A program made the position numbers and the translations under genes. This document shows, in pieces, positions 8,235-20,352 of a stretch of DNA of 32,898 nt. The stretch is from Phascolarctobacterium sp. (GTDB lineage Bacteria; Bacillota; Negativicutes; Acidaminococcales; Acidaminococcaceae): contig JAFTID010000040.1 of the NCBI GenBank assembly GCA_017457085.1, forward strand, positions 1 through 32,898. Direction: 5' to 3'. Every line of letters begins with the position of its first letter. The first letter of the stretch is position 1. The notes under the pieces are model-generated. The model searched no databases. It saw only the letters and a program-made list of their open reading frames with translations, and was not told the origin of the DNA.

Positions 8235-8840
8235 ATGCCACTTGTAATTAATGGGAAATCATTAACATTTTCTAACGAGCTTTTTGAAGCTGTAAAATCT
8301 TATATCGATAAAAACTTTGTAGAGGCAATACACTGTAAAAAATATTTACTGGACGAGAAGAGCTTTAATTTTAGTGTATCTGAATCTGCCTGCGAATTCG
8401 AGTGCCTTAAAACGATATCATCACGTTCCTGTAGCAAAACATATTCAGCAGAGAACAATCTTCGTCCGTTTGAAGATATCATTAAAAATTTGGAAAGCAG
8501 TTTTGCGGAGGCGCTTTTTGCTCGCATAGACGAAAAGGGCTTAACTGACCCGCAAGTTTATAAACGCGCCAACTTGGATAGGAAGCTGTTCTCGAAAATT
8601 AGAAAAAATAAAAATTATAAACCAAGTAAAACCACAGCAATCGCTATTGCCATTGCCTTGGAGCTTAATTTAGATGAAACCAAAGATTTTATTGGCAAGG
8701 CAGGTTATGCGCTTACACATAGTAGTAAGCTGGATGTTATCGTAGAGTATTTTATCATCAATGGCGAATATGACATCTTCAAAATAAATGAAGTGCTTTT
8801 TGCTTTTGAGCAACCCTTGCTTGGATTAAATGTCGCTTGA
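8235..8840 (+). CDS. Hypothetical helix-turn-helix-like protein paired with a vWA protein
   Basis: The product has 201 residues. The N-terminal 90 residues are unrecognised. The C-terminal half (about residues 95-195) reads like a family seen beside vWA proteins in Firmicutes: LFARIDEKGLTDPQVYKRAN, then LDRKLFSKIRKNKNYKPSK, then ALELNLDETKDFIGKAGYAL. This looks like an XRE-like helix-turn-helix fold (inference from the DPQVYKRANLDRKLFSKIR helix pair). A GGAG at about 8220 and a TATAAT at 8181-8186 precede the gene. Its stop is followed at once by the inverted repeat that covers the ribosome binding site of the vWA gene, so regulation of that neighbour is plausible. The biochemical role is unknown. 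Confidence 0.6.
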   Translation: MPLVINGKSLTFSNELFEAVKSYIDKNFVEAIHCKKYLLDEKSFNFSVSESACEFECLKTISSRSCSKTYSAENNLRPFEDIIKNLESSFAEALFARIDEKGLTDPQVYKRANLDRKLFSKIRKNKNYKPSKTTAIAIAIALELNLDETKDFIGKAGYALTHSSKLDVIVEYFIINGEYDIFKINEVLFAFEQPLLGLNVA

Positions 8841-8893
8841 TAGGCGACCTCTCCTTTGTTTTAAACGCCTATAATTAGGTTAAAACAAAGGAG
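8841..8893 (+). promoter_or_regulatory. Inverted repeats enclosing the -10 and ribosome binding site of the vWA gene
   Basis: CTCCTTTGTTTTAA (8851-8864) and TTAAAACAAAGGAG (8880-8893) are perfect 14-bp complements, and the second arm contains the AAGGAGG ribosome binding site. TATAAT (8870-8875) lies between the arms. A second pair, TAGGCG (8841-8846) and CGCCTA (8866-8871), interlocks with the first in pseudoknot order. A transcript coming from the upstream gene would hide the ribosome binding site, while one starting after the internal TATAAT would not. No good -35 is visible. Confidence 0.6.
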
Positions 8894-8903
8894 GTTTTTA
8901 TTT

Positions 8904-9551
8904 ATGAAAGAATTAACAGAAGTTGTATTTATTTTGGATCGCAGTGGCTCTATGAATGGCTTGGAAAAGGATACCATTGGTGGCTTTAACAGTATGCTTA
9001 CAAAACAAAAGCAAGTTGAAGGCGATGTGCTTATTTCTACGGTTCTTTTTGATGACAAGTGCGAGGTTTTGCATGACCGTAAGCCAATTCAAGAGATTAA
9101 CCCCATGACAGAAAAGGAATATTACGTGCGTGGCTGCACTGCATTGCTTGATGCTGTTGGCGGAGCTATTCATCACATTGGCAATATCCATAAGTACGCT
9201 CGTGAAGAAGACAGACCTAACAAGACCTTATTTGTGATTATCACAGATGGTTTTGAAAATTCCAGCAAGCGTTATACTTATGATAGAGTTAAGAGTATGA
9301 TTGAACGCCAACAAAAACGTTACGACTGGGAGTTTATGTTCTTAGGCGCAAACATTGATGCTATTGCTGAAGCAAAACGCTTTGGGATTAGGGAAGATAG
9401 GGCAGTAGATTATCTTTGTGATGAAGTTGGCACTGCACTGAATTACGAAACTGTAAGCGAAGTAGTAAGTTGCCTGCGAGCAAACAAATCTATTTGTGCC
9501 GGTTGGAAAAAGAAAATTGAAAGAGATGTTGCGAGTCGTGGCATGTGTTGA
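8904..9551 (+). CDS. von Willebrand factor type A domain protein (TerY-like)
   Basis: The 215-residue product is a stand-alone vWA domain. The metal-ion-dependent adhesion site is complete: DRSGSM (about residues 12-17), the threonine in VRGCTALLDAVGG (about residue 79) and the aspartate in FVIITDGFENSS (about residue 114). There is no signal peptide or membrane segment, so it is probably cytoplasmic, like TerY-type vWA proteins. Those bind partner proteins through the metal site. No ter genes, PP2C phosphatase or kinase are nearby, so it is not an ordinary tellurite or TerY-P cluster. The upstream helix-turn-helix-like protein is the likely partner or regulator (inference). Confidence 0.85.
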   Translation: MKELTEVVFILDRSGSMNGLEKDTIGGFNSMLTKQKQVEGDVLISTVLFDDKCEVLHDRKPIQEINPMTEKEYYVRGCTALLDAVGGAIHHIGNIHKYAREEDRPNKTLFVIITDGFENSSKRYTYDRVKSMIERQQKRYDWEFMFLGANIDAIAEAKRFGIREDRAVDYLCDEVGTALNYETVSEVVSCLRANKSICAGWKKKIERDVASRGMC

Positions 9552-9598
9552 GAAGAATATTCATAATATTTCGTAAGAGTAAATATGCTAAGAAGCAT

Positions 9599-9635
9599 TT
9601 GACAACATAATTTTATTGATTATAATGAAATCAAT
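9599..9635 (+). promoter_or_regulatory. Promoter and operator of the RelBE/ParDE-type module
   Basis: TTGACA (9599-9604), a 16-base spacer and TATAAT (9621-9626) are both consensus. The inverted repeat ATTGATT (9615-9621) / AATCAAT (9629-9635) brackets the -10, as expected for autorepression by an antitoxin or toxin-antitoxin complex. Confidence 0.8.
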
Positions 9636-9649
9636 GGAGGTATTTTGAA

Positions 9650-9799
9650 ATGCAAAAGATTCCGCAAGAACATCTTGAGGCACTCCTTGAATCGGAGAAA
9701 CAGGAAGCTATGGGAAAAGCAGAATATCTTTCGCACGAGGAACTTGTGAACTCTATAGAGAGGATATTCGCAGATTTTGATGAAGCGAAAGCAGTATAG
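9650..9799 (+). CDS. Small antitoxin of a RelBE/ParDE-type module
   Basis: The frame from ATG 9650 to TAG 9797-9799 encodes 49 residues (starts MQKIPQEHLEALLESEK, ends IFADFDEAKAV) and is predicted to be mostly helical and acidic. GGAGG at 9636-9640 gives 9-base spacing. It directly follows a consensus promoter with an operator-like inverted repeat and overlaps the toxin gene by about 20 bases, the classic antitoxin-first order. The sequence is too short to assign to RelB, ParD or another family. The C-terminal IFADFDEA segment is the probable toxin-binding part (inference). Confidence 0.7.
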   Translation: MQKIPQEHLEALLESEKQEAMGKAEYLSHEELVNSIERIFADFDEAKAV

Positions 9800-10100
9800 A
9801 ATTATTTACAGAATTGTTTTCCATAAAGAGTTAAGCAGTATTGTAAATTATATTTTATACGTGTTGCATAACAGAAGTGCAGCTCGAAGAATCTATAAGA
9901 ATGTTATTAGCGCAATAGAAAAACGTGCTGTAACGTTGCCAAGTGCTTATGAGATTCTTAGAAATGAAATGTTGACAAAAGAATATTATAGAATTTATAT
10001 CAATAATTATGTTGTGTATTATTCGTTGGAAGAAGATACAATGCTTGTTGAGCATATAGTTTATTCTAAACAAAACGCATTAGAGTTTTTGGATATATAA
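9780..10100 (+). CDS. RelE/ParE-superfamily toxin
   Basis: The product has 106 residues from ATG 9780; a TTG one codon upstream is an alternative start. It shows the RelE/ParE pattern: an N-terminal strand and helix (YRIVFHKELSSIVNYILYVL), a second helix (AARRIYKNVISAIEKRAVTL), then the paired strands YRIYINNYVVYYSLEED and VEHIVYSKQN. RelE toxins cleave mRNA on the ribosome, while ParE toxins poison gyrase, and the sequence alone does not decide which. The gene overlaps the antitoxin gene in another frame, which implies translational coupling, and a strong terminator follows. Confidence 0.8.
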   Translation: MKRKQYRIIYRIVFHKELSSIVNYILYVLHNRSAARRIYKNVISAIEKRAVTLPSAYEILRNEMLTKEYYRIYINNYVVYYSLEEDTMLVEHIVYSKQNALEFLDI

Positions 10101-10104
10101 GCGG

Positions 10105-10141
10105 AAAGAAGTTCTCTTGAACGGAGAGCTTCTTTTTTTTA
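10105..10141 (+). terminator. Rho-independent terminator after the RelE/ParE-type toxin
   Basis: AAAGAAGTTCTC (10105-10116) and GAGAGCTTCTTT (10124-10135) form a 12-bp stem with one G-U pair and a 7-base loop. A run of Ts follows. The stem resembles the one at 8128-8162. Confidence 0.9.
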
Positions 10142-10167
10142 TGCACATTGTGAGAAACTCGATTGCT

Positions 10168-10211
10168 TAGCCAAATGTTGGCAAGATAATTTTGTAAAAT
10201 ACTAGTATACA
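10168..10211 (+). promoter_or_regulatory. Shared operator and promoter upstream of the WYL regulator
   Basis: TAGCCAA-ATG-TTGGCAA (10168-10184) is an imperfect palindrome with GCCAA/TTGGC arms. It is followed by TAAAAT (10195-10200) and by TATACA (10206-10211). The same element with identical spacings (N10 to TAAAAT, N21 to TATA) recurs at 16447-16490. The palindrome centre is about 42 bases upstream of the start predicted from TATACA, a position typical of activator sites overlapping the -35. Confidence 0.55.
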
Positions 10212-10307
10212 ATCTATGCTCACTAAAATTTAAAGGATAATTTTTTTTTTGTAGAATATGTTACTAATAGTTTATGGGTATAGGTAAATTTTTTGGGAAG
10301 TGTTGAT

Positions 10308-11264
10308 ATGGAAAACTACAAAGTTGCAAAAGACCGATTGTTAGTTATGCAAGCACGTTTACTTGAAGGCAAGGTTTTGTATAAAGAGGAAGAAGCTAAG
10401 AGATTTGGCTGTTCCGTGCGTTCAATACAACGTGACATTGATGACTTGCGGTCTTTTTTTCATAATCAGAGTGAGGATAGTGGTGTCGTTCAAGACCTTA
10501 TTTATGACCGAAAGCTAAAAGGCTATCGCCTTGTTCCGCCAGTTAGAAATGTCTTAAAAAATGAAGAAGTATTTGCTGTGCTGAAAATTTTGTTGGAAAG
10601 CAGAGCTTTTACGAAAGACGAGCTTTATCCAATTTTAGATAAGCTGGTAGATTGTTGTGTTCCGAGAGAAAAGAAACGCCAAGTAAATGAGTTGATTGGT
10701 AATGAAAAATTGCATTACGTAGAACCGCAACACAAAAGTGCTTACTTAGAAAAAATGTGGAACCTTTCTGAAGCGGTTAAAGAACGTAAACAGATAATTA
10801 TAAATTACAGACGTGCAGTTTTAGATGACAAAGTTGTAGAACGTACTTTACAACCTGTAGGGATAATGTTCTCAGAATTTTACTTTTACCTTGTTGCGTT
10901 CATAGTACCTAAAGAAAATGAAAGCATTAAGTACAAAGTAAAAGATGACCCGTTCCCGACAATTTATAGAATAGACCGCATTCAAGATTACACCATAACA
11001 GATGAGCATTTTTATGTGCCTTATCAAAATAGATTTGAAGAGGGCGAGTTCCGCAAGCGGGTACAATTCATGTACGGTGGTAAGTTGCAAAAAATAAAAT
11101 TCTACTATAAAGGACCTAACGTTGAAGCTGTTCTTGACAGATTGCCCACTGCAAAAATTTTGGAGCATAATGAGAAAGGTTACCTTGTTAGTGCAGAAGT
11201 TTTCGGTGCAGGTATTGAGATGTGGCTTAGAAGCCAAGGCGAGATGGTAGAAGTGGTGGAATGA
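10308..11264 (+). CDS. WYL-domain transcriptional regulator with N-terminal HTH
   Basis: The product has about 318 residues. The N-terminal winged helix-turn-helix (about residues 5-65) has AKRFGCSVRSIQRDIDDLRS, the DeoR-like recognition pattern. The WYL domain (about residues 150-230) shows IIINYRRAVLDDKVVERTLQ, PVGIMFSEFYFYLVAF and IYRIDRIQDY. A C-terminal WCX-like segment follows (KIKFYYKGPNVEAVLDRLP to LRSQGEMVEVVE). WYL proteins sense nucleic acid or nucleotide ligands and often control DNA-damage responses or phage-defence loci. ATG 10308 has GGGAAG at 10295-10300; an in-frame TTG at 10293 is less likely. The gap to the next gene is 62 bases without a terminator, so it probably heads the 11.3-14.9 kb operon. 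Confidence 0.88.
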   Translation: MENYKVAKDRLLVMQARLLEGKVLYKEEEAKRFGCSVRSIQRDIDDLRSFFHNQSEDSGVVQDLIYDRKLKGYRLVPPVRNVLKNEEVFAVLKILLESRAFTKDELYPILDKLVDCCVPREKKRQVNELIGNEKLHYVEPQHKSAYLEKMWNLSEAVKERKQIIINYRRAVLDDKVVERTLQPVGIMFSEFYFYLVAFIVPKENESIKYKVKDDPFPTIYRIDRIQDYTITDEHFYVPYQNRFEEGEFRKRVQFMYGGKLQKIKFYYKGPNVEAVLDRLPTAKILEHNEKGYLVSAEVFGAGIEMWLRSQGEMVEVVE

Positions 11265-11326
11265 ATTGATTACAAATATATTTTAATAAGGTTTAAAAGG
11301 GTATATGGTTGAAAGGATATAAGAAT

Positions 11327-13012
11327 ATGACTTATGTAAAAAATAATGATGTGGCAACAGAAGTATTTGATTTTGATGAGTTAGAAGAAATGCTTCAAAA
11401 GAATTTAGAAGAGGAACTTTCTGGATTAGATTTTCTTAAACGTGAGCAAGAGATAATAGGAAATCCAGAAAACCTTGGTAATGTTATTAAAAATGTTGTT
11501 TGGGAGCAGTTTGTAAATCAAATAGCAGTTACCGCTGGTAAGGATTTTATTAAAGAAAATAAAGGGCTTACATTGGACGTGCGTGAGGAAGCTCATATTC
11601 AAACAGCTGATAATTTTGCTGTCGGAAAGATTGCTACACATAATTATTTAAGCAAAGATAAGATTGAACAAAATTACGACAGATATATAAATATACCGCA
11701 TAAAGAATTTCGGGATGAATTTGTAGATAAAGGTATGGATGTAACGCTTAAACGAGCGGGAGAATTGAAAAAAGAAGGTATTGATTATGTAAAAGATATT
11801 TATACAGGAAGGCAGATTTCTACTAGCACTAAGTTAGAGAATGGTGAGAATAATTCGAAGGCTGCACAGAGGGAACATGTAATGCCTTCTGCAGAAATTT
11901 ATAAAAATCCATCTTTACAAATGGCTAACGATAGCGATGAATTAGCAGATGTAATTAATCATCCTGAAAATTTACAAGGTTATACTACAGCTGAACGTAA
12001 TCTCAGAAAAAGTGATAAATCTAGCTGTAAAATGGATGAGCGTGATAAAACGAAACATTGGGAAGAAGCAAATAGTAGAGCAGAAAAATATATTCAAGAT
12101 AAAGAGCAAAGTGGTGAAAAGCGCCTTAGAAATGAAGGTGAGAAAACTCGTGAGGAAGAAGCTTTTCGTATTGGTGGTAAAGCGTTACGAGCGGTTATTA
12201 TGCGTTTGCTTGCAGAATTGGTAAAAGAAATTATTGTTAAGCTTGTAAAATGGTTTAAGTCTGCAAAGAGAAAGTTAGAAACATTTTTGGAAAGTCTAAA
12301 AGAAGCTATACATTCTTTTGTGAATAATTTGAAGACGCATATTTTTAATGCCGTTCATACATTAACAGATACCATTGTTACATCTATTGTGGGACCTATT
12401 TGGGGAACTATTAAAAAAGTATGGATTTTATTAAAGCAAGGCTGGAAATCTTTACGTGAGGCAGTTGCTTATATTAAAAGTCCTGTTAATGGAAATAAAC
12501 CTATTGGTATTTTGTTAATGGAAACTGGGAAAATTATTATAGCAGGTCTGGCTGGAGCAGGTGCGATTGTTCTTAGTGAGGTTATAGAAAAAGGATTGCT
12601 TACTGTTCCTGTATTTGCAGTTGAAATTCCGATGATTGGGAGTCTAGCTAACATATGTGGTATCTTTTTTGGTGCTGTAACTGCTGGCATTATAGGTGCA
12701 ATAGCAATCAATATTATTGAGAAGAAAGTTGAAAAACAAAAAAAGGCTGAAAATATTAAAATGCAAATTGCAAAAGGGAATGAAGTTTTGGTTATACAGG
12801 ATCAACTTCTTGATGTCAGCAAGGAGAAACTGAATACTAGGAAAGATGATTTTAGAAGTGATATTAATAAAAGACATAAAGAAGCACAAAAAGAAATTCA
12901 TAAATCACTAAGCAGTATTTTTGATAATAAAGTAAAAGTTAACAGCGATAAAGATTTTGCTGAAATGGACGCTTTGTTAGATAGTTTAAGCTTTAACAAA
13001 GGGGATGCATAG
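11327..13012 (+). CDS. Unknown protein with HNH-like motif and C-terminal membrane segments
   Basis: The product has 561 residues from ATG 11327 (AAAGGA upstream; an in-frame TTG at 11309 is less likely). Residues 1-160 are charged and mostly helical. Residues about 160-235 contain an HNH-like array: AAQREHVMPSAEIYKN with H184, then HPENLQGYTTAERNLRKSDK with N215, N225 and K228. This suggests a His-Me-finger nuclease, but the match is by eye. Residues 240-390 are amphipathic helices. Hydrophobic segments follow at about 393-420 and 433-464 (GIFFGAVTAGIIGAIAINII), then a lysine-rich coiled-coil tail. So it is probably a membrane-bound protein with a nuclease-like head. AT content is high. It is encoded two bases before the next gene. 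Function unknown. Confidence 0.6.
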   Translation: MTYVKNNDVATEVFDFDELEEMLQKNLEEELSGLDFLKREQEIIGNPENLGNVIKNVVWEQFVNQIAVTAGKDFIKENKGLTLDVREEAHIQTADNFAVGKIATHNYLSKDKIEQNYDRYINIPHKEFRDEFVDKGMDVTLKRAGELKKEGIDYVKDIYTGRQISTSTKLENGENNSKAAQREHVMPSAEIYKNPSLQMANDSDELADVINHPENLQGYTTAERNLRKSDKSSCKMDERDKTKHWEEANSRAEKYIQDKEQSGEKRLRNEGEKTREEEAFRIGGKALRAVIMRLLAELVKEIIVKLVKWFKSAKRKLETFLESLKEAIHSFVNNLKTHIFNAVHTLTDTIVTSIVGPIWGTIKKVWILLKQGWKSLREAVAYIKSPVNGNKPIGILLMETGKIIIAGLAGAGAIVLSEVIEKGLLTVPVFAVEIPMIGSLANICGIFFGAVTAGIIGAIAINIIEKKVEKQKKAENIKMQIAKGNEVLVIQDQLLDVSKEKLNTRKDDFRSDINKRHKEAQKEIHKSLSSIFDNKVKVNSDKDFAEMDALLDSLSFNKGDA

Positions 13013-13013
13013 T

Positions 13014-13655
13014 ATGAGTGACATTATAGTTAATAGGGTTAAGATCAATAAGGAGAAATTTTTACGATCCAAAGAAAAACTTAAAGTTTTTTCACAACGT
13101 GCGAAAACAGATGTCCAAATTCCTAAAGTTGCTGATAGTGACCTATACTTTTTTGATCATGCTGTTACTGGAAAGGAATTAAATAGAGTAACTGCTAGTG
13201 TGCAGGGCGTTTTGGTAAAGTTAAATAACTTGCAAATAGATACGATTAAAGAATTTTCGGAAGTCTATGATACACTTGCATATTTAGATAAAGAATATTT
13301 GAATAGTATAGTGATGGCATTAAAAGCAGCAGAGGAGGTAGATAGAGAGATAAAGGCTGAACAAGTAAGGCTAAATAATACTATAGAAAGACAAATACGC
13401 ACAATTGTAGAATTAAAAGCCTTTGATAAAGCTGTTAACGAGAGGTTTGAGTATATAGATAATAGTACTGTTGCATTATTAAATAAAATAGAAATGATAG
13501 GTGCACAATACCAAAGCAAAATAATTGAGATGGAATCACGATTAGAAAAATTACAGGCAAGAAACAGTAATGATAATAGAGCTTTTGTTATAGCGTGTGT
13601 TGCAATTCTTGGTGTTATTGCGGAGGCTGTTTATATAATTACTAAACTTATTTGA
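13014..13655 (+). CDS. Unknown coiled-coil protein with C-terminal membrane anchor
   Basis: The product has 213 residues from ATG 13014. AAAGGGG at 12998-13004 supports this start over an in-frame ATG at 13005, which would touch the Shine-Dalgarno. Almost the whole chain is predicted helical and coiled-coil (LDKEYLNSIVMALKAAEEVD, QSKIIEMESRLEKLQARNSN). It ends in one hydrophobic segment (AFVIACVAILGVIAEAVYII) with a short tail, so it looks tail-anchored with its coiled coil in the cytoplasm. No enzymatic motif is visible. The gene is wedged two bases behind the HNH-motif gene, and its stop is 41 bases before the next start. A structural or adaptor role in a membrane complex is inferred only from this arrangement. 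Confidence 0.65.
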   Translation: MSDIIVNRVKINKEKFLRSKEKLKVFSQRAKTDVQIPKVADSDLYFFDHAVTGKELNRVTASVQGVLVKLNNLQIDTIKEFSEVYDTLAYLDKEYLNSIVMALKAAEEVDREIKAEQVRLNNTIERQIRTIVELKAFDKAVNERFEYIDNSTVALLNKIEMIGAQYQSKIIEMESRLEKLQARNSNDNRAFVIACVAILGVIAEAVYIITKLI

Positions 13656-13696
13656 GCGTTATTGATTATTTTAACAAAATAATCATGGAGGTTGTT

Positions 13697-14929
13697 ATGA
13701 ATTTCAAATCTTTACGAGAAAATAAATTACAAATCAGTGTTGAGGAAATGGCAGCACTTATTGGTAAAACAGAAGCTGATGTTTTGGAAATGGAAGTAGA
13801 TCCAGAAATGATTGATTTGAAGACCTTAAAAGTATTAGCTGAAAAAACCAATATGACATTAGATGAGCTCGAAGCTTGGGGGGCGTTAACGGTGCAACCT
13901 GAGCAAAAAACAGTGCTGGACAAATTTGGAAACTTTGTAAAAGAAGCTAATATTGGGGACATGCAAAAAGAAATGTCTACAAAGATTAAAGAATTTGGAT
14001 TAGCTGAAAGATTTAATATTCAAGCAGAAGAAATGAAAGAGAGTGCTAAAGGAATAAATTTTATAGAGAAAATAAAAGAAGCTACTTTAGCGCATAATGT
14101 TGCTGAAACCGTGCAAAAGATAGCGAAGAGTAGCAAAGTTAAATTATTTAAGCAAGAGGATAGGAAAATTACTTTTGCTGAATTGTTGGCTAAGTTACCG
14201 AAAATGCCTATCAACATATCATACTTTATTAAAGATATTAAGGACGAAAAAGCTAAGAATGCAACAATCAATATAATGAAAGGAAATATTGAAAATAATA
14301 TTGAACAATACAGGAAAAATACGAAGCAAGAATTTCAAGAAATCTATAAAACTAGTATTAACATAGATGTATTAGTAGGACATATTTCTAGATGTGGTAT
14401 AACAAGGAAGAGTAGTAAGAATGAAATACAATTAATGTTGCAAGAATTGGAATGCTATTTTAAAAATAGCATTAGTGATATTTTGAAAGATAAAGCAAAG
14501 GATTTAGGAAATGATATTCAAGTATTTATGTTAAGATATGCTTATATACGTTACGGAAATCTTGAGATTGGTGATAAGAAATGGATAGGTGAACAGGGAT
14601 TTCTAGAAGAAGGTATAAGTTGTACTATTGAAGATTATAGTGATTTTGAAGAATTTTTTAGGGTCGTTGTAATTTTAGGTAGTTTTTTTGACCCCACAGG
14701 AGGTGTATTTGCAGAACTTTTTGATACAGGTTTAGATTGGTATTATACTGATGAAAAATTTAGGAATAAAATTGCGGAAAAGATAGTTGAAGCATACGAA
14801 AAGGGTAATTTATTAAATCTGTATATGTCTAAAATGGATGATTTTTGGAATAAAAATAGTAAATCATTCGATAGCTTAGTAAAAGATATGGATAAAGCAT
14901 ATAAAGAATATGCTAAAACAGTGAAATAA
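13697..14929 (+). CDS. Unknown protein with N-terminal XRE-like HTH and long helical C-terminus
   Basis: The product has 410 residues from ATG 13697 (TGGAGG at 13686-13691). Residues 1-62 read as an XRE/Cro-type helix-turn-helix: FKSLRENKLQISVEEMAALI, then LKTLKVLAEKTNMTLDELEA. The remainder is charged and helical, with amphipathic stretches (EKIKEATLAHNVAETVQKIA). One moderately hydrophobic part is VVVILGSFFDPTGGVFAELF (about residues 325-345). No catalytic motif was recognised. As the last gene of the cassette it could sense a signal, repress the operon or act as an effector, and the sequence does not decide. A strong terminator follows. Codon use is very AT-rich, as in the two genes before it. 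Confidence 0.65.
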   Translation: MNFKSLRENKLQISVEEMAALIGKTEADVLEMEVDPEMIDLKTLKVLAEKTNMTLDELEAWGALTVQPEQKTVLDKFGNFVKEANIGDMQKEMSTKIKEFGLAERFNIQAEEMKESAKGINFIEKIKEATLAHNVAETVQKIAKSSKVKLFKQEDRKITFAELLAKLPKMPINISYFIKDIKDEKAKNATINIMKGNIENNIEQYRKNTKQEFQEIYKTSINIDVLVGHISRCGITRKSSKNEIQLMLQELECYFKNSISDILKDKAKDLGNDIQVFMLRYAYIRYGNLEIGDKKWIGEQGFLEEGISCTIEDYSDFEEFFRVVVILGSFFDPTGGVFAELFDTGLDWYYTDEKFRNKIAEKIVEAYEKGNLLNLYMSKMDDFWNKNSKSFDSLVKDMDKAYKEYAKTVK

Positions 14930-14955
14930 TAATATATTATATAATTTTATACGTG

Positions 14956-15000
14956 CCACCTCACATTAAGTTGAAAAACTTAGTGTAAGGTGGTGTTTTT
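14956..15000 (+). terminator. Rho-independent terminator after the WYL-led cassette
   Basis: CCACCT (14956-14961) pairs with AGGTGG (14988-14993), and inner segments ACA/TGT and TAAGT/ACTTA extend the stem. A T run follows. The rest of 15000-15228 holds no gene that I can support. It contains CAACCTC/GAGGTTG inverted arms at about 15172-15207, probably the end of the IS remnant. Confidence 0.85.
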
Positions 15001-15228
15001 CTCCTTGAGTGAAATAGTAACTGCAAGATAGTATATAGGTTAAAGAAAATAGTCGCTTAAAATGGCTATTAAAGCATTAAAAACTGGTATATAATAATCT
15101 AAAACTGTTGGTTTTGCACTATTTTTGCGAATAGCAAACAGACGACGCTCCAATTTTTGAAAAAGAAAATGCAACCTCGTCTAAGTTAGCTTATCGAGTT
15201 GAGGTTGGTTGTCTGACTTGCGTAAAAA

Positions 15229-15730
15229 TTACCTGTTTTGTTTTAACAGGATTGGTTTGAGGCACACTTCATCGGGTGGAATCGCGGAGAGTGCTAGTGC
15301 GGCTAACAGTTTTTTGTGTTTCTCGGAAGTCATAAGGTCAAATGGGGTAAGGTTATCAAATATTTCTCTGGTAACACTGTTAATATGCCTAGTAATGAGA
15401 TGTACATCTTCTGCTTTCAAGAACTTGAAAGTAGTACCTTTGGGTAAAATTCTCCTGATCAGAGCATGGTTTTTCTCAATATGAGCTTTTTGCCATGAAG
15501 CTTGAGGGTCACAGTAGAAGATTCTAGTCCGGCGTTCTCCTGTTTCAGAGAATTCGAGATTGTGAGGCCCTTTAAACTCAACGCCATTGTCGGTGAGAAT
15601 GACAGGGAAAACCTTTTTGAATAAGTCTAAACCTAATTTTCTTGTCAAATAATCGAATACTCCGTTCACACTCTTTATGGAAGATAATTTTATAAAAGTG
15701 TATTTTAAAAGATGTGAGAATTTGACAATA
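15229..15730 (-). pseudogene. Truncated IS30-family transposase (C-terminal part)
   Basis: The open frame encodes the C-terminal part of an IS30-family DDE transposase. It shows VFPVILTDNGVEFKGPHNLE with the second catalytic aspartate, RTRIFYCDPQASWQKAHIEK with the catalytic glutamate, then NHALIRRILPKGTTFKFL and HINSVTREIFDNLTPFDLM. The N-terminal helix-turn-helix and first aspartate are missing. In-frame IS30-like residues (FSHLLKYTFIK and SVNGVFDYL) continue upstream to about 15730, where the sequence passes into the promoter of the HigB-type gene. No start codon with a ribosome binding site is present. The element is a 5'-deleted remnant and should be inactive. Confidence 0.85.
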
Positions 15731-15750
15731 TTCCTTTTGGGGAATATACT
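15722..15750 (+). promoter_or_regulatory. Promoter and operator of the HigBA-type module
   Basis: TTGACA (15722-15727), a 17-base spacer and TATACT (15745-15750) are close to consensus. ATATTCC and GGAATAT form a perfect 7-bp inverted repeat inside the spacer and -10, a likely binding site for the XRE antitoxin. Confidence 0.75.
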
Positions 15751-15768
15751 AGTATTGAGGAAGGTGAT

Positions 15769-16125
15769 GTGTTGTTTGATGTAGATTTTTACAGATTGCC
15801 AAATGGTAAAGCACCAGTAGAAGAATTTTTAGATAGTTTGAGCGTCAAAATGAGAAACAAAGCTTTAGATAGTATCTTGCTTCTGGAAGAGTTTGGCAAC
15901 AATCTTAGAGAACCACATTCAAAGGCTATGGGTGATGGGATTTTTGAATTAAGAATTAAATTCTCTAATGACATTAGCAGAATTTTTTACTTTTTCTGCG
16001 TTGGTAATAGGATTATTCTAACAAATGGGTTTATTAAGAAAACTAACAAGACCTCTGTTTCGGAATTAAATCTTGCTAAAAAATATAAATTAGATTATGA
16101 ACAAAGGAGCATGCAAAATGAGTGA
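15769..16125 (+). CDS. HigB-like toxin (phage Gp49-like/RelE superfamily)
   Basis: The product has 118 residues. It matches the Gp49-like HigB pattern throughout: LPNGKAPVEEFLDSL, then EEFGNNLREPHSKAMGDGIF, ELRIKFSNDISRIFYFF, and IILTNGFIKKTNKTSVSELN. These toxins are ribosome-dependent mRNA interferases. The first usable codon is GTG 15769 after GAGGAAGG (15757-15764); TTG 15772 is an alternative. Toxin-first order and an 8-base overlap with the XRE antitoxin gene are typical of higBA. The promoter lies right at the edge of the IS30 remnant. Confidence 0.88.
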   Translation: MLFDVDFYRLPNGKAPVEEFLDSLSVKMRNKALDSILLLEEFGNNLREPHSKAMGDGIFELRIKFSNDISRIFYFFCVGNRIILTNGFIKKTNKTSVSELNLAKKYKLDYEQRSMQNE

Positions 16126-16390
16126 CTTCAGAAAATATCTTGATAAACAATTGCAAAACGAAGAATTTAGGGCAGAACATGAAGCTACTCGTGCAGAATT
16201 TGAAGTGGTACGTGCGTTAATTGCTGCTAGAATTGAATCCAATCTTACCCAAAAAGAGTTGGCAGAGTTGTCTGGTGTAAGGCAATCTAATATCAGTCGT
16301 ATTGAAAACGGAAGCTGTATGCCTTCTTTGGCAACGTTGCAAGCTTTGGCAAAAGGCTTGAATAAAAAACTTGTAATTGAGTTTGTATAA
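16118..16390 (+). CDS. HigA-like XRE-family antitoxin
   Basis: The product has 90 residues from ATG 16118 with AAAGGAG about 10 bases upstream; an in-frame ATG at 16097 precedes that site and is less likely. An acidic N-terminal helix (FRKYLDKQLQNEEFRAEHEA) probably contacts the toxin. A complete XRE helix-turn-helix follows: SNLTQKELAELSGVRQSNIS, then RIENGSCMPSLATLQALAKG. It would neutralise the HigB-like toxin and repress the operon at the inverted repeat in the promoter. The gene overlaps the toxin stop and is followed by a terminator. Confidence 0.9.
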   Translation: MSDFRKYLDKQLQNEEFRAEHEATRAEFEVVRALIAARIESNLTQKELAELSGVRQSNISRIENGSCMPSLATLQALAKGLNKKLVIEFV

Positions 16391-16410
16391 AAATTTTTGT
16401 TTGAAAGTTG

Positions 16411-16443
16411 GAGAGTGGATTTTTCCGCTCTCTTTTTCTTTTT
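16411..16443 (+). terminator. Rho-independent terminator after the HigBA-type module
   Basis: GAGAGTGGA (16411-16419) and TCCGCTCTC (16424-16432) form a 9-bp stem with one G-U pair and a T-only loop, followed by a long T-rich tail. Confidence 0.88.
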
Positions 16444-16446
16444 ACC

Positions 16447-16490
16447 TAGCCAATATTTGGCAAAGCGCTGGGATAAAATCAAAGTATAAT
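16447..16490 (+). promoter_or_regulatory. Second copy of the shared operator and promoter
   Basis: TAGCCAA-TAT-TTGGCAA (16447-16463), then TAAAAT at 16474-16479 and TATAAT at 16485-16490. All spacings match those of the element at 10168-10211. It lies 41 bases before the start of the 16532 gene and starts only four bases after the previous T tail. Confidence 0.6.
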
Positions 16491-16531
16491 CCTTAAATAG
16501 AAAGGGGTTAGGAAAGGAAGGAGTGATTTGT

Positions 16532-16873
16532 ATGAGATTAAAAGATAATAACAAATTTGTTGCAACTAAGATTAGAGATTTTGCAAAGTTGATTATGAAA
16601 GAACGAGCTGTGACTGAAAGGGTAGAACGTCATTTTAAAAATCTTGTGCGTACTACGGGTAAACCCTATCGTTCTGTGCAACTTCTCACGCTATGGACTA
16701 TTATTAAAGCTTATCCCAAAGCAAGTCTACCGCATTTAACTTATTTAGATATAGAAGGATTTATAGATGCGGCTACTGCAGAAAATAATTGGGCAAAGGT
16801 TAAGAATTTACCGAAAACATCTGATATTATGGGAGCCATAGAACGAAAGGTAGATGTTGGTGAATACCGATAA
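16532..16873 (+). CDS. Small hypothetical protein
   Basis: The product has 113 residues from ATG 16532 with an AAGGAAGGAG ribosome binding site 9 bases upstream. It is soluble and helical with a basic N-terminal half (KFVATKIRDFAKLIMKERAV, then ERVERHFKNLV). I do not recognise the family, and no catalytic motif or membrane segment is visible. It is the first gene of a probable three-gene operon with a DUF1232 protein and a small membrane peptide, driven by the promoter that carries the shared TAGCCAA-N3-TTGGCAA element. Confidence 0.7.
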   Translation: MRLKDNNKFVATKIRDFAKLIMKERAVTERVERHFKNLVRTTGKPYRSVQLLTLWTIIKAYPKASLPHLTYLDIEGFIDAATAENNWAKVKNLPKTSDIMGAIERKVDVGEYR

Positions 16874-16905
16874 ATTCAGTTTTCAGAATATGAGGAGGAG
16901 TTTAT

Positions 16906-17271
16906 ATGAGGACAGTTGGTATAGTTGACAAGGATATGATAGAAATTTATTTTAAATGGGAAGCATTATATAAGAAAATTAAAAGGGTGTTAATCAAAGC
17001 AGGGTTAGAGTTAATTTATAAGGTTTTACAACTTTGGTACGTACTTCAAAAACCAGACCTGCTTTACCCTATCAAAGCAACCATTGTTGGTGCCCTTACC
17101 TATTTTATTTTGCCGATAGACAGTGTTCCAGATTTTTTGCCTGGTGGTTTTACAGATGATGCCGCGGCAATAGCTTTTGCTTTGAGTATGGCATCTTTGT
17201 ATATTGATGAGCATGTGAATGAAAAGGCGCGAAAGAAACTTATTGAGCTTATGGCACAAGTCGTGTGTTAA
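16906..17271 (+). CDS. DUF1232 (YkvA-like) membrane protein
   Basis: The product has 121 residues. The DUF1232 signature is clear: AFILPIDSVPDFLPG-type sequence (here YFILPIDSVPDFLPGGFTDD), followed by AAAIAFALSMASLYIDEHV. One or two hydrophobic segments flank it, and the N-terminal 45 residues are basic and helical. The family is widespread and its biochemical role is not established. GAGGAGG at about 16891-16898 gives a firm start. It lies 32 bases after the 16532 gene and 18 bases before a small membrane peptide. Confidence 0.85.
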   Translation: MRTVGIVDKDMIEIYFKWEALYKKIKRVLIKAGLELIYKVLQLWYVLQKPDLLYPIKATIVGALTYFILPIDSVPDFLPGGFTDDAAAIAFALSMASLYIDEHVNEKARKKLIELMAQVVC

Positions 17272-17289
17272 ACGGAAGGATTGGTTAGT

Positions 17290-17427
17290 TTGTTTGATAA
17301 TAAGATTTTGATCTCACTTGGAGGAATTGTTTTGCTTGCCCCTGCATTACCTTTTTTGGTGTTAATGCTTTTGGGATTGATAGTTGCTGGATTTGCGTTG
17401 TATTATTTAGTTGAGCTAATGGATTGA
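17290..17427 (+). CDS. Small hydrophobic membrane peptide
   Basis: The frame encodes 45 residues from TTG 17290 (MFDNKILISLGG then two hydrophobic stretches, LVLMLLGLIVAGFALYYLVE) and ends in LMD at 17427. The site GGAAGGA at 17274-17280 gives 9-base spacing to TTG 17290. An in-frame TTG at 17281 directly abuts that site and is less likely. It is probably a one- or two-pass membrane protein cotranscribed with the DUF1232 gene. Function unknown. Confidence 0.55.
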   Translation: MFDNKILISLGGIVLLAPALPFLVLMLLGLIVAGFALYYLVELMD

Positions 17428-17448
17428 TGTAGTAACTTAGTAACCGCT

Positions 17449-17634
17449 TTAATGATTTCCAGTGAAACGATTATGACGAGTAGCAACAACAAAATCGAGA
17501 AAAATATCGTTAAGACCACATTCTGAGCTGTAGTTTCCAAGTTGTTGTTTAATGTACGAGGCGAATATGTGGGCAACGATATTTTTAACTAAAATGTTGC
17601 GTAGGGAGTCATTGTTGAACGGAAATATTAAAGC
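17449..17634 (-). pseudogene. Possible remnant of a protein-coding gene
   Basis: On the minus strand an uninterrupted frame of about 61 codons ends at TAA 17451-17449. It reads like real protein (NDSLRNILVKNIVAHIFASY, then GLNDIFLDFVVATRHNRFTG). It begins just after an in-frame stop, has no start codon with a ribosome binding site and lies downstream of no visible promoter. I do not recognise it. It is either a decayed fragment at the island boundary or chance. Nothing else could be supported in 17428-17670. Confidence 0.25.
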
Positions 17635-17670
17635 GTTTTAGAATACTAATTAAAAATTATCACCCCAAAC

Positions 17671-17710
17671 CAAAAAACTCCGTCCCTCAATTTGAGGAAC
17701 GGAGTTTTGC
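17671..17710. terminator. Bidirectional terminator at the 3' end of metNIQ
   Basis: AAAACTCCGT (17674-17683) and ACGGAGTTTT (17699-17708) are perfect complements and the stem continues with CCTCAA/TTGAGG. A/T tracts lie on both sides, so it can terminate metQ on the minus strand and transcripts of the island on the plus strand. Confidence 0.88.
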
Positions 17711-17724
17711 TTTTTATGAAGCAA

Positions 17725-18552
17725 TTACCATGCCGGAGTAATGGTGCCTTTGAAGTATTCGTTTACGAATTTTTTGTTTTCTACGGATTGGTAAACTTCT
17801 TGCAATTGTTTAATACGCGGGTCGTTTACGTTAGCTTCGCGGGTAACAAAAATGTTCAAGAACGGGTTGTTAGCATTTTCCAAGAGGATGGAATCATTGG
17901 TGGGGTTCAGACCTGCGGGCAGAGCGTAGTTGCAGTTGATAACAGCAACGGTCAAGTCAGGCAAGCTGTTGGGAATGATGGCAGCATCCAGTTCACGGAT
18001 AACCAAGTTTTTCGGGTTAGCGGTGATGTCTTTAACAGTGGTAACAACATTGGTTTTATCTTTGAGTTCGATTAAGCCTTTGTCAGCCAAGAGGAGCAGT
18101 GCGCGACCGCCGTTAGAGGGGTCGTTAGGAATACCAACAACTGCACCTTCAGGGATTTCTTCACCTTTTTTAACTTTTTGAGAGTATACTGCCATAGGGA
18201 AGTTTACGGTTTTGAAAACTTCTACCAATTTAAAAGAAGGTTCTTTAGCCAAGGTTGCTTTCAGATAAGGAGCGTGTTGCATGGAGTTTGCAAAGAGTTC
18301 GCCTTGATGGAGAGCAACGTTGGGAGTTACATAATCGGAGAATTCAACAACTTCTATTTTCAAGCCTTTTTTGTCAGCCAATTTTTTTACGTTATCCATG
18401 ATCTCAGCGTGAGGACCAGCAGTTACACCAATTTTAATGGGAGCGTTGGTATCTGCTTTCTTTTCAGCTTTTTTATCGCCACCGCAACCAACTGCGAAAG
18501 CGGTGAATGCACAAAGTGCTGCGATGCTCAAAATTTTTGCTAATTTTTTCAT
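17725..18552 (-). CDS. metQ: Methionine ABC transporter substrate-binding lipoprotein MetQ
   Basis: The product has 275 residues. It has a lipoprotein signal peptide with lipobox around AFAVGC (Cys about residue 23), a short Lys/Ala linker, then the NlpA/MetQ fold: IKIGVTAGPHAEIMDNVKKL, VEFSDYVTPNVALHQGEL, QHAPYLKATL, and RELDAAIIPNSLPDL. It captures methionine at the outer face of the membrane for MetNI. The start is ATG 18552-18550 with GGAGG 8 bases upstream; the in-frame TTG at 18567 overlaps that site. It is the last gene of the riboswitch-controlled metNIQ operon. Confidence 0.95.
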   Translation of the reverse strand: MKKLAKILSIAALCAFTAFAVGCGGDKKAEKKADTNAPIKIGVTAGPHAEIMDNVKKLADKKGLKIEVVEFSDYVTPNVALHQGELFANSMQHAPYLKATLAKEPSFKLVEVFKTVNFPMAVYSQKVKKGEEIPEGAVVGIPNDPSNGGRALLLLADKGLIELKDKTNVVTTVKDITANPKNLVIRELDAAIIPNSLPDLTVAVINCNYALPAGLNPTNDSILLENANNPFLNIFVTREANVNDPRIKQLQEVYQSVENKKFVNEYFKGTITPAW

Positions 18553-18609
18553 AGGGGATTCCTCCAAACTTTTATAGACGTTCTAAGGAGCTTGCTCGCT
18601 TAGAAAATT

Positions 18610-19269
18610 TTACAGTTTATTTTTGTTAAGTTTTTTGCTCATCCAGTCACCGAAGGATTGCATTACTTGAACCATTACGATGAGGACGATAACGGTTACA
18701 ATCATAACGTCCATTTGGAAACGTTGATAACCATAACGGATTGCTAAGTCACCCAAACCGCCGCCGCCAAGTGCGCCAGCCATTGCAGAGTAACCAATCA
18801 AGCTGATGATTGCAAGGGTTACGCCCAATACGATGGAGTGGAGTGCTTCCGGAAGCAGAACCTTGGTGATGATTTGCATGGGGCTTGCGCCCATTGCTTG
18901 TGCTGCTTCGATGATACCGGGGTTGATTTCCAAAAGGGAAGATTCAATGATGCGGGCAATGAACGGTGCTGCAGAAATTGTCAGCGGCACGATTGCTGCG
19001 GTGGTACCAATGGAAGAACCAACAATCATACGGGTTACAGGGATGATGGCAACCATTAAGATGATGAACGGAGTGGAACGGGCTGCGTTTACAACTGCGC
19101 CCAATACGGAATTGATTGCTGCGTTGGGAAGGATGTGGTCTTTACGGGTAACGGTCAAGATCACACCCAAGGGCATACCTATTGCGGTAGCGAGTGCTGC
19201 AGAAGCGAAAACCATGTAGCAGGTTTCCCAAAAAGATTTTATCAAAAGATCAATCATATCAGGACTCAT
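18610..19269 (-). CDS. metI: Methionine ABC transporter permease MetI
   Basis: The product has 219 residues with five or six membrane segments and the ABC permease EAA loop (EAAQAMGASPMQIITKVLLP). RSTPFIILMVAIIPVTRMIV and GYSAMAGALGGGGLGDLAIR are typical MetI blocks. It forms the transmembrane channel with MetN. The ATG at 19269-19267 follows GGAGG at 9 bases. A TTG two codons upstream is possible but lies closer to that site. The gene overlaps the end of metN by 11 bases. Confidence 0.96.
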   Translation of the reverse strand: MSPDMIDLLIKSFWETCYMVFASAALATAIGMPLGVILTVTRKDHILPNAAINSVLGAVVNAARSTPFIILMVAIIPVTRMIVGSSIGTTAAIVPLTISAAPFIARIIESSLLEINPGIIEAAQAMGASPMQIITKVLLPEALHSIVLGVTLAIISLIGYSAMAGALGGGGLGDLAIRYGYQRFQMDVMIVTVIVLIVMVQVMQSFGDWMSKKLNKNKL

Positions 19270-20296
19270 AACCAATTACCTCCGTTTTCAGATTTTGGTT
19301 GTGCAAGTATTCCAAAGCACTGTCGATACCTTCGTGGGTACCGGAGATTTCGATAATCAAAGTGCCGAAGGGAACATCTTTCAGTTGAGCGATGTTACCA
19401 AACAAAATACTTACATCTACGTCAAACTTTTTAACCATGCCGGAAACGATAGGTTCGCCTGCGGAATTGCCTAAGAAGGAGATACGCACGATGAGCTTGC
19501 TGTTTTCAACATATTTTTCGGTCAGATGCATGTTCTTGATAATTTCAGGAAGCTCTGCATTCATAACGCTCTTGGTAAATTCTTTGGTGGTTTCGTGTTG
19601 CGGATTGGTGAACACTTCTACCATGTTACCTTGTTCAATAATCTCGCCATTGTCGATTACTGCAACGCGGTCGCAAATTTCAGTTACAACTTCCATTTGG
19701 TGGGTAATCAGTACGATGGTGAGCTGCATTTTTTTATTGATGTCTTTGAGCAAGTCCAAAATGGATTTAGTAGTTTGGGGGTCCAACGCGCTAGTTGCTT
19801 CGTCGCACAGCAGAACCTTCGGATTACTAGCCAAAGCACGAGCAATGCCTACGCGTTGCTTTTGACCGCCGGAAAGCTGGCTGGGATAGTAGTTAGCTCT
19901 GGTTTCCAGTTGTACCAATTCCAGAAGGGGACGTACACGTTTATCAATTTCATCTTTGCTCAAGCCTTGGATTTCCAGAGGGAAAGCAATGTTGTCATAG
20001 ACAGTACGGGAAGCCAACAGGTTAAAGTGTTGGAAAATCATACCAATGCCTTGTCGAGTTTTGTTCAGCTCTGTTTTGTTCATGGAGGTCAGTTCTGCAC
20101 CGTCAACATAAACTTTGCCTGCGGTGGGGCGTTCTAACATATTGATGCAGCGCACCAAAGTAGATTTGCCTGCACCGGACAAACCGATGATGCCGAAGAT
20201 TTCGCCAGCATTGATAGACAGGTTGGTAGTTTTCAAAGCGTGGATGTCGCCGGCTTTGCTGTAGTAAGTTTTCTCTACATTTACTAGTTCTATCAT
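19259..20296 (-). CDS. metN: Methionine ABC transporter ATP-binding protein MetN
   Basis: The 345-residue product is the usual MetN length. It has Walker A (GLSGAGKST, about residues 38-46), the Q-loop region (GMIFQHFNLLASRTVYDNIA), the ABC signature (LSGGQKQRVGIARALA), Walker B (VLLCDEATSALD) and the switch histidine (VLITHQMEV). The C-terminal 80-90 residues form the NIL domain that gives methionine transinhibition in this family (LIVRISFLGNSAGEPIVSGM). It powers methionine import with MetI and MetQ and is the first gene after the SAM riboswitch. Confidence 0.97.
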   Translation of the reverse strand: MIELVNVEKTYYSKAGDIHALKTTNLSINAGEIFGIIGLSGAGKSTLVRCINMLERPTAGKVYVDGAELTSMNKTELNKTRQGIGMIFQHFNLLASRTVYDNIAFPLEIQGLSKDEIDKRVRPLLELVQLETRANYYPSQLSGGQKQRVGIARALASNPKVLLCDEATSALDPQTTKSILDLLKDINKKMQLTIVLITHQMEVVTEICDRVAVIDNGEIIEQGNMVEVFTNPQHETTKEFTKSVMNAELPEIIKNMHLTEKYVENSKLIVRISFLGNSAGEPIVSGMVKKFDVDVSILFGNIAQLKDVPFGTLIIEISGTHEGIDSALEYLHNQNLKTEVIGYES

Positions 20297-20352
20297 AAAC
20301 TTTTATCCTTTCTCGAAAGCTGTATAAGTACCATTATGCTTTGTCGCAACTT

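Follow-up and report, generated by a model that had tools for sequence, protein, structure and literature searches.

That a nuclease anchored in the bacterial membrane might cut the DNA of phages as they enter was proposed only recently, with SNIPE in 2026. SNIPE, a GIY-YIG nuclease with a membrane anchor, is reported to cut phage DNA while it is being injected, and removal of the anchor makes it toxic to the host (PMC13190303). A 2026 review places SNIPE alongside Zorya and Kiwa among the membrane-located systems that target DNA (PMC12904381). The Juk system has a sensor, JukA, which according to a review senses early jumbo-phage proteins, recruits effectors and acts at the infection site (PMC13282480). 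The label PDC, used below for families of the PADLOC library, stands for phage defence candidate (PMC11514479).

We analysed a stretch of 32,898 nucleotides from Phascolarctobacterium sp. (assembly GCA_017457085.1, contig JAFTID010000040.1, forward strand), hereafter the window. Within it, an operon-like run on the plus strand consists of a WYL-domain gene, a gene that we call B, a gene that we call C and a third gene, with gaps of 62, 1 and 41 bases when starts preceded by ribosome-binding-like sequences are chosen. We consider it probable that the operon serves membrane-tethered anti-phage defence with B as its effector, an HNH nuclease that most likely cuts phage DNA at the membrane. The features on which the following paragraphs draw are these:

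10091-17665, no strand: island of about 7.6 kb around the B operon, where sister genome G001 has about 208 bp instead (genome comparison)
10293-11264, plus strand: WYL-domain regulator with N-terminal helix-turn-helix (HTH), immediately upstream of B (Pfam WYL 1.9e-9; PADLOC WYL 2.5e-17)
11327-13012, plus strand: B gene, 561 aa, HNH (His-Me-finger-like) domain and helical/hydrophobic C-terminal region (PDC-M40B, alignment, model)
11786-12013, plus strand: predicted HNH-like domain core of B (domain model and conservation)
11876-11878, plus strand: codon of H184, presumed general base (32/32 homologues)
11969-12010, plus strand: N215 and N225 (32/32 each) and K228 (31/32) of B (32-sequence alignment)
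12533-12589, plus strand: first strong hydrophobic segment of B, residues 403-421 (mean hydropathy 1.93)
12653-12709, plus strand: second hydrophobic segment of B, residues 443-461 (mean hydropathy 2.33)
13014-13655, plus strand: C gene, 213 aa, probable coiled coil with a C-terminal hydrophobic segment at about 13584-13640 (homologues adjoin B)
13697-14929, plus strand: third gene, 410 aa, weak N-terminal HTH (open reading frame as listed from 13652)

For B we preferred the ATG at 11327, which is preceded by AAAGGA, a ribosome-binding-like sequence; the open reading frame as listed runs from a TTG (11309-13012). Counted from this ATG, H184 lies at 11876-11878, N215 at 11969-11971, N225 at 11999-12001 and K228 at 12008-12010, and counting from 11324 instead raises each number by one (H185, N216, N226, K229). 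A preliminary description of this DNA had picked out these four residues as a His/Asn/Asn/Lys motif of a nuclease, with their conservation set beforehand as a test; the motif is found at exactly the named residues, and these are the most conserved of the family. In an alignment of 32 B homologues (mean column identity 24%), no column apart from H184, N215 and N225 is invariant, and K228 (31/32) is the sole further column at 90% or above. The position before H184 holds D in 27 of the 32 and E in five, the window protein having E183. Judged from these sequences, the motif stands far above chance level; the preliminary description is correct on the motif and very probably on the nuclease too. Our literature search found no published activity for any member of the B family.

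Structure prediction pointed the same way. The model of the domain (188 residues, 15 sequences; mean pLDDT 79.6, pTM 0.75) has short strands at 154-157 and 163-165, a strand at 181-184 that ends in H184 and is followed by a helical insertion, a strand at 216-220 directly after N215, and a helix at 222-229 that carries N225 and K228. The beta-beta-alpha order of elements, on which the nuclease proposal had been made to depend, is thus present in the model (strand with H184, insertion, strand, helix). When 41 PDB chains were re-aligned to this model with VIA, only two reached a Z of at least 2, both of them HNH proteins and both weak: the CBASS effector Cap5 (Z 2.9, rmsd 4.9 over 87), through a part that we take to be its HNH domain, and the HNH domain of Nme1Cas9 (Z 2.8, rmsd 8.8 over 97). 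No effector-ligand or guide parts were seen in B. Foldseek with the domain model returned nothing from the PDB at E 0.001 or better; in a viral library its top match was the homologue of phage LAh10 (E 6.0e-3, probability 0.97), and proteins named HNH filled nine of 35 rows, each at E > 2. These fold results agree with an HNH fold in B, short of proof.

Among known domains, GmrSD_C/DUF1524 (Pfam PF07510) has the same motif order as B, and one distant member, L022 (loci are numbered with L, genomes with G), passes its cut-off (26.8 versus 23 bits). Matches to GmrSD_C at E 0.1 or better were nevertheless confined to two of 32 members, the window protein is not matched by the model, and in B the HNH domain is fused to a membrane region. 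The Pfam scan of window B gave no HNH or GmrSD_C match, its sole row at E 0.1 being E2_bind (0.094). Alignment of three B sets to two GmrSD-type proteins with hhalign was weak (48.9%, 29.1% and 58.0%); the HNH matches L026 and L028 served for this comparison only, and the weak matches L024, L025, L027, L029 and L030 were left out. A PDB sequence search with the family profile returned a single row below 0.001, the Hsp90 co-chaperone Cdc37 (E 0.00066), which we judged a chance helical match, as we did seven further rows (E 0.065 to 0.42).

The motif region also ties the family together. We built non-overlapping profile sets from a close group (14 proteins), a mainly plasmid-borne group (13) and distant relatives (5), and compared them over the motif region: the close group scored 99.2% against the mainly plasmid-borne group and 97.5% against the distant relatives, and the latter two scored 98.7% against each other, versus 0.1 to 1.1% in five control pairings that used another stretch of the same proteins. 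The five distant relatives have a C-terminus that differs from that of B. Distant proteins in the same class that combine an HNH part with hydrophobic segments were seen at L073-L077 (421-646 aa), where the neighbours are membrane-like partners and TerB, CxxCxxCC or ferredoxin-like (by eye) genes; in one of them the HNH part matches PDC-M40B and the C-terminus matches PDC-M09B.

The preliminary description had placed two hydrophobic segments about 165 residues after the motif, in a protein otherwise helical. Both segments are present, at about 175 and 215 residues past K228 rather than 165, with weaker hydropathy peaks between them and at 289-307; the rest of the protein is almost wholly helical by prediction, but residues 281-480 are modelled with little confidence (block pLDDT 33-65). 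By simple hydropathy, a peak of 1.6 or more occurs in 22 of 23 B proteins scanned, the Vibrio protein having none at this threshold, and P435, between the two strong segments, is kept in 28 of 32 homologues. B is likely at the membrane, because of these hydropathy peaks and of the hydrophobic C-terminal tails found in 16 of the 18 close-type C proteins scanned, that of the window included; the C proteins of L042 (with masked residues) and L044 gave no hydrophobic tail in the scan. C itself is probably a coiled coil, as suggested by weak matches to coiled-coil models and by composition.

The same hydrophobic half could be read as the active part, with the C-terminal region permeabilising the membrane or a phage vesicle, as reported for JukB, and the HNH domain secondary. 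The near-universal segments and the retained P435 would fit such an activity, as would one member's weak match to Oleosin (23.6 bits, under the 25-bit cut-off), a JukA-like neighbour and the PDC-M09B match at the C-terminus of a distant member. The strictly conserved residues, however, all lie within the HNH domain and none of them in the membrane half (32 homologues), and we regard membrane disruption as the main activity of B as very unlikely. The full-length model (14 sequences; mean pLDDT 62.4, pTM 0.40), in which the second half is helical and poorly determined, gave a best VIA Z of 8.6 and no Foldseek match at E 0.001 or better. This search was uninformative, the matches of its long helices ranging over MukB, dynein and alpha-pore-forming toxins, and we read no pore-forming relationship into it.

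Nuclease and anchor together make SNIPE the nearest published system to B by function, a comparison drawn from anatomy: B resembles SNIPE in its parts and is not a member. As in SNIPE, a nuclease domain, here a predicted one, is carried on a probable membrane anchor and could be expected to encounter DNA at the inner membrane. B differs in having an HNH rather than a GIY-YIG domain, in lacking a DUF4041 match, in carrying its hydrophobic part at the C-terminus, whereas the SNIPE segment is N-terminal, and in having extra partner genes. The toxicity of anchor-free SNIPE (PMC13190303) lends something to another use of the same architecture, abortive infection, in which the tethered nuclease would be freed on infection and cut the chromosome or all DNA indiscriminately, killing the cell before phages are released. 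The tethered, partnered layout of B would suit such an inhibited effector. It is hard to see, though, what a membrane anchor would gain for a nuclease aimed at the chromosome, and the only partner with known biology, JukA, works at the infection site (PMC13282480). We hold abortive infection to be unlikely.

All 16 distinct B proteins scanned with PADLOC, a set drawn without those of L042-L057, L031, L032, L038 and L041, matched the candidate-defence model PDC-M40B, the window protein weakly (2.5e-6) and its close relatives more strongly (L008 7e-14, L004 2.4e-12). PDC systems were reportedly first described in a preprint. The pair encoded on an E. coli plasmid matches both PDC-M40B (1.2e-101) and PDC-M40C (2.3e-26), whereas C of the window, and C and the AAA+ proteins of L008 and L004, match no PDC-M40 model. 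Since window C has no PDC-M40C match, we did not file the operon as a PDC-M40 system, and B alone is counted as a family member. The PADLOC library attaches no description to PDC-M40B, and a literature search whose coverage did not extend to preprints found neither the term PDC-M40 nor a system recognised as the B operon.

Around this one conserved protein the partners change. In close relatives the gene order is B-C-AAA+, with the AAA+ gene in all 18 loci that have downstream sequence (14 of 16 from the GTDB- and viral-contig scans plus L004, L005, L008 and L080; L043 and L046 were left out because of contig ends). AAA+ genes were recognised by likeness to the L008 and L004 proteins, and the Pfam scan, made for the L008 protein, gave AAA with AAA_lid_6. 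Of the 18 loci, 17 had a recognisable C, the open reading frame in the C position of L047 being unmatched by phmmer, and C homologues in plasmids (E 0.01) came to two records only, both with B. Elsewhere B is paired with PDC-M40C (E. coli and Klebsiella plasmids), with PDC-M09A (C. difficile, E. coli, Vibrio, phage LAh10, genomes G205 and G212) or, in three enterobacterial plasmids from a single lineage, with a JukA-like protein (E 2.4e-58); this naming of partners covers loci other than those of Variovorax, Paraclostridium, Pseudomonas, Photobacterium and three genomes. A CxxCxxCC-type gene accompanies five of the six PDC-M09A pairs and is absent from phage LAh10. All such counts are of loci and not of independent events: the B proteins of L046 and L047 are identical, and those of L049, L051, L053 and L056 share 96.8 to 98.6% identity. 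The exchange of partners beside a single effector is, we infer, the pattern of a sensor/effector defence system.

Two of these pairings deserve a separate word. In the Aeromonas jumbo phage LAh10 (L039 4940-7536), whose B is annotated 'cobalamin adenosyltransferase', the pair of a PDC-M09A-like protein and B is perhaps directed against competing phages. In the enterobacterial plasmids (L033 4591-7401), the JukA-like sensor with an HNH-membrane protein is possibly a nuclease version of Juk. Juk is relevant to B because JukA senses early jumbo-phage proteins (PMC13282480) and a JukA-like protein is encoded directly beside the B gene in the three plasmids. The two differ in that no scanned B matched a JukB model, if PADLOC contains one. 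A JukA match was obtained in L033 only; the PADLOC scan of ten window proteins, which took in those of the operon, gave none.

WYL proteins act as regulators of phage defence, and a WYL gene belongs to the B cluster of the window and to those of 11 of 39 other loci (L012, L033, L035, L036, L038, L044, L046, L047, L055, L073 and L075, the matches of L046 and L047 being weak), a count made without L007, a copy of L006, and L011, on the same contig as L043, and one that may miss diverged WYL genes, several loci being incomplete. C begins with an ATG one base past the stop of B (open reading frame as listed from 13005). The third gene of the window occupies the place of the AAA+ ATPase (CbbX-type) of the close relatives; searches with it gave no full-length homologue, with one 63-residue HTH match besides itself in 300 genomes and none in plasmids. 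The window locus is thus the exception in having no AAA+ gene. Elsewhere in the window genome we found only a 702-aa open reading frame on another contig (residues 98-365 at 38%), which was judged not to be the AAA+ partner of the operon.

Because the AAA+ gene is missing here against all 18 testable close relatives, the window copy may be altered or non-functional, a degenerate remnant that retained the motif and lost the ATPase. This reading is also favoured by genome G002 (L071 8684-9637), in which a WYL relative with 68% DNA identity lies directly after the counterpart of the 7110-7706 gene and the corresponding region contains neither B nor C, so that the WYL relative alone is retained. 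Yet the open reading frames of the window are all intact and closely packed, its catalytic residues are unchanged, and plasmid operons of E. coli, Klebsiella and Variovorax likewise have no AAA+ gene beside B and its neighbour. We therefore regard decay of the window copy as distinctly unlikely, and continue with B as the effector of an anti-phage operon.

The locus is mobile in its setting. In G001 the counterparts of window 8470-10090 and 17666-20297 are separated by about 208 bases, so that the island is extra in the window. A ParE-like toxin gene lies at its left edge (9777-10100), and a Gp49-like/HTH toxin-antitoxin pair lies within it (15769-16390). G003 has two McrB/McrC-like open reading frames (by eye) slightly upstream, in the interval bounded by the counterparts of window 8162 and 8541, adjoined by an HTH gene and a von Willebrand A gene (L070 8505-10001). 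An HTH gene followed by a von Willebrand A gene near a defence operon recurs in the window (8235-9551) and in another genus (L008 10722-12449), and the HTH genes of L008 and L070 have an N-terminal macro-like domain (by eye).

B homologues were found in plasmids, whole genomes, GTDB contigs, viral contigs and one jumbo phage, and record titles place them in Streptococcus, Lactococcus, clostridia, Prevotella, a Treponema bin and many Gram-negative plasmids. Plasmid records numbered 7 in one search and 74 in another. The initial scan of genome contigs with window B alone as query gave none, the close-group profile (E 1e-20) found one match besides the window genome among 398 genomes of the phylum, and window B found one besides the window genome among 59 genomes of the family. 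The phage collection gave no match to window B and one phage, in two records, with the E. coli protein. Of six viral-contig scans, two gave one relative each and four gave none, which, with most of the scans using only two short patterns, is suggestive of B being rare on viral contigs.

The plasmid records, with the toxin-antitoxin-like genes at the edge of the island and inside it, would suit an operon that is not anti-phage and instead acts on plasmids or conjugation, or stabilises mobile elements. Set against this are the candidate-defence listing in PADLOC, the JukA-like and WYL neighbours, the jumbo phage that carries the pair, and several B copies on contigs of 0.1 to 1.4 Mb; we think such a role improbable. 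Action on DNA entering the cell, which the preliminary description had expected of a membrane-attached nuclease, is favoured by context (the PADLOC candidate-defence family, the JukA-like partner in one lineage, WYL and the mobile island) and is best called putative; action at the nucleoid edge, the other site named there, may also occur.

With B as the effector of an anti-phage operon, its N-terminal half would carry a nuclease domain of the His-Me-finger (HNH) kind, closest to DUF1524/GmrSD_C, in which H184 would act as general base and N225, perhaps with E183, would lie at the metal site; the C-terminal half would insert into the inner membrane as a hydrophobic hairpin. C, which is probably a coiled coil with its own hydrophobic C-terminal anchor, would either sense infection at the membrane or keep B inactive, and the WYL protein would control the operon. 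On infection, the nuclease would be released or positioned so that DNA near the membrane is cut, most likely incoming phage DNA. We infer the nuclease activity and membrane insertion of B, the sensor and effector roles and the target; the conservation of the motif, the gene order, the family match and the island status of the locus are displayed by the sequence itself.

Carried further, B may be the common effector of a large undescribed defence class, in which one membrane-tethered HNH nuclease is joined to interchangeable sensors, a reading to which we give somewhat less than an even chance. The sensors would then be the tail-anchored coiled coil, which works with an AAA+ remodeller of CbbX type, PDC-M40C, PDC-M09A together with a CxxCxxCC protein, and JukA; the cutting of phage DNA at the membrane would not depend on SNIPE, Zorya or Kiwa; and the window would hold a further version, with an orphan HTH protein instead of the AAA+ ATPase. 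Three things appear to be new: HNH as the assignment of PDC-M40B, an operon version with the order B-C-AAA+, and partners that are swapped while the effector stays the same. The B family would be a second type of nuclease on a membrane anchor, one with swappable partners, and PDC-M40B, a family without description in PADLOC, gains a probable catalytic domain and residues to mutate, so that its function becomes directly testable.
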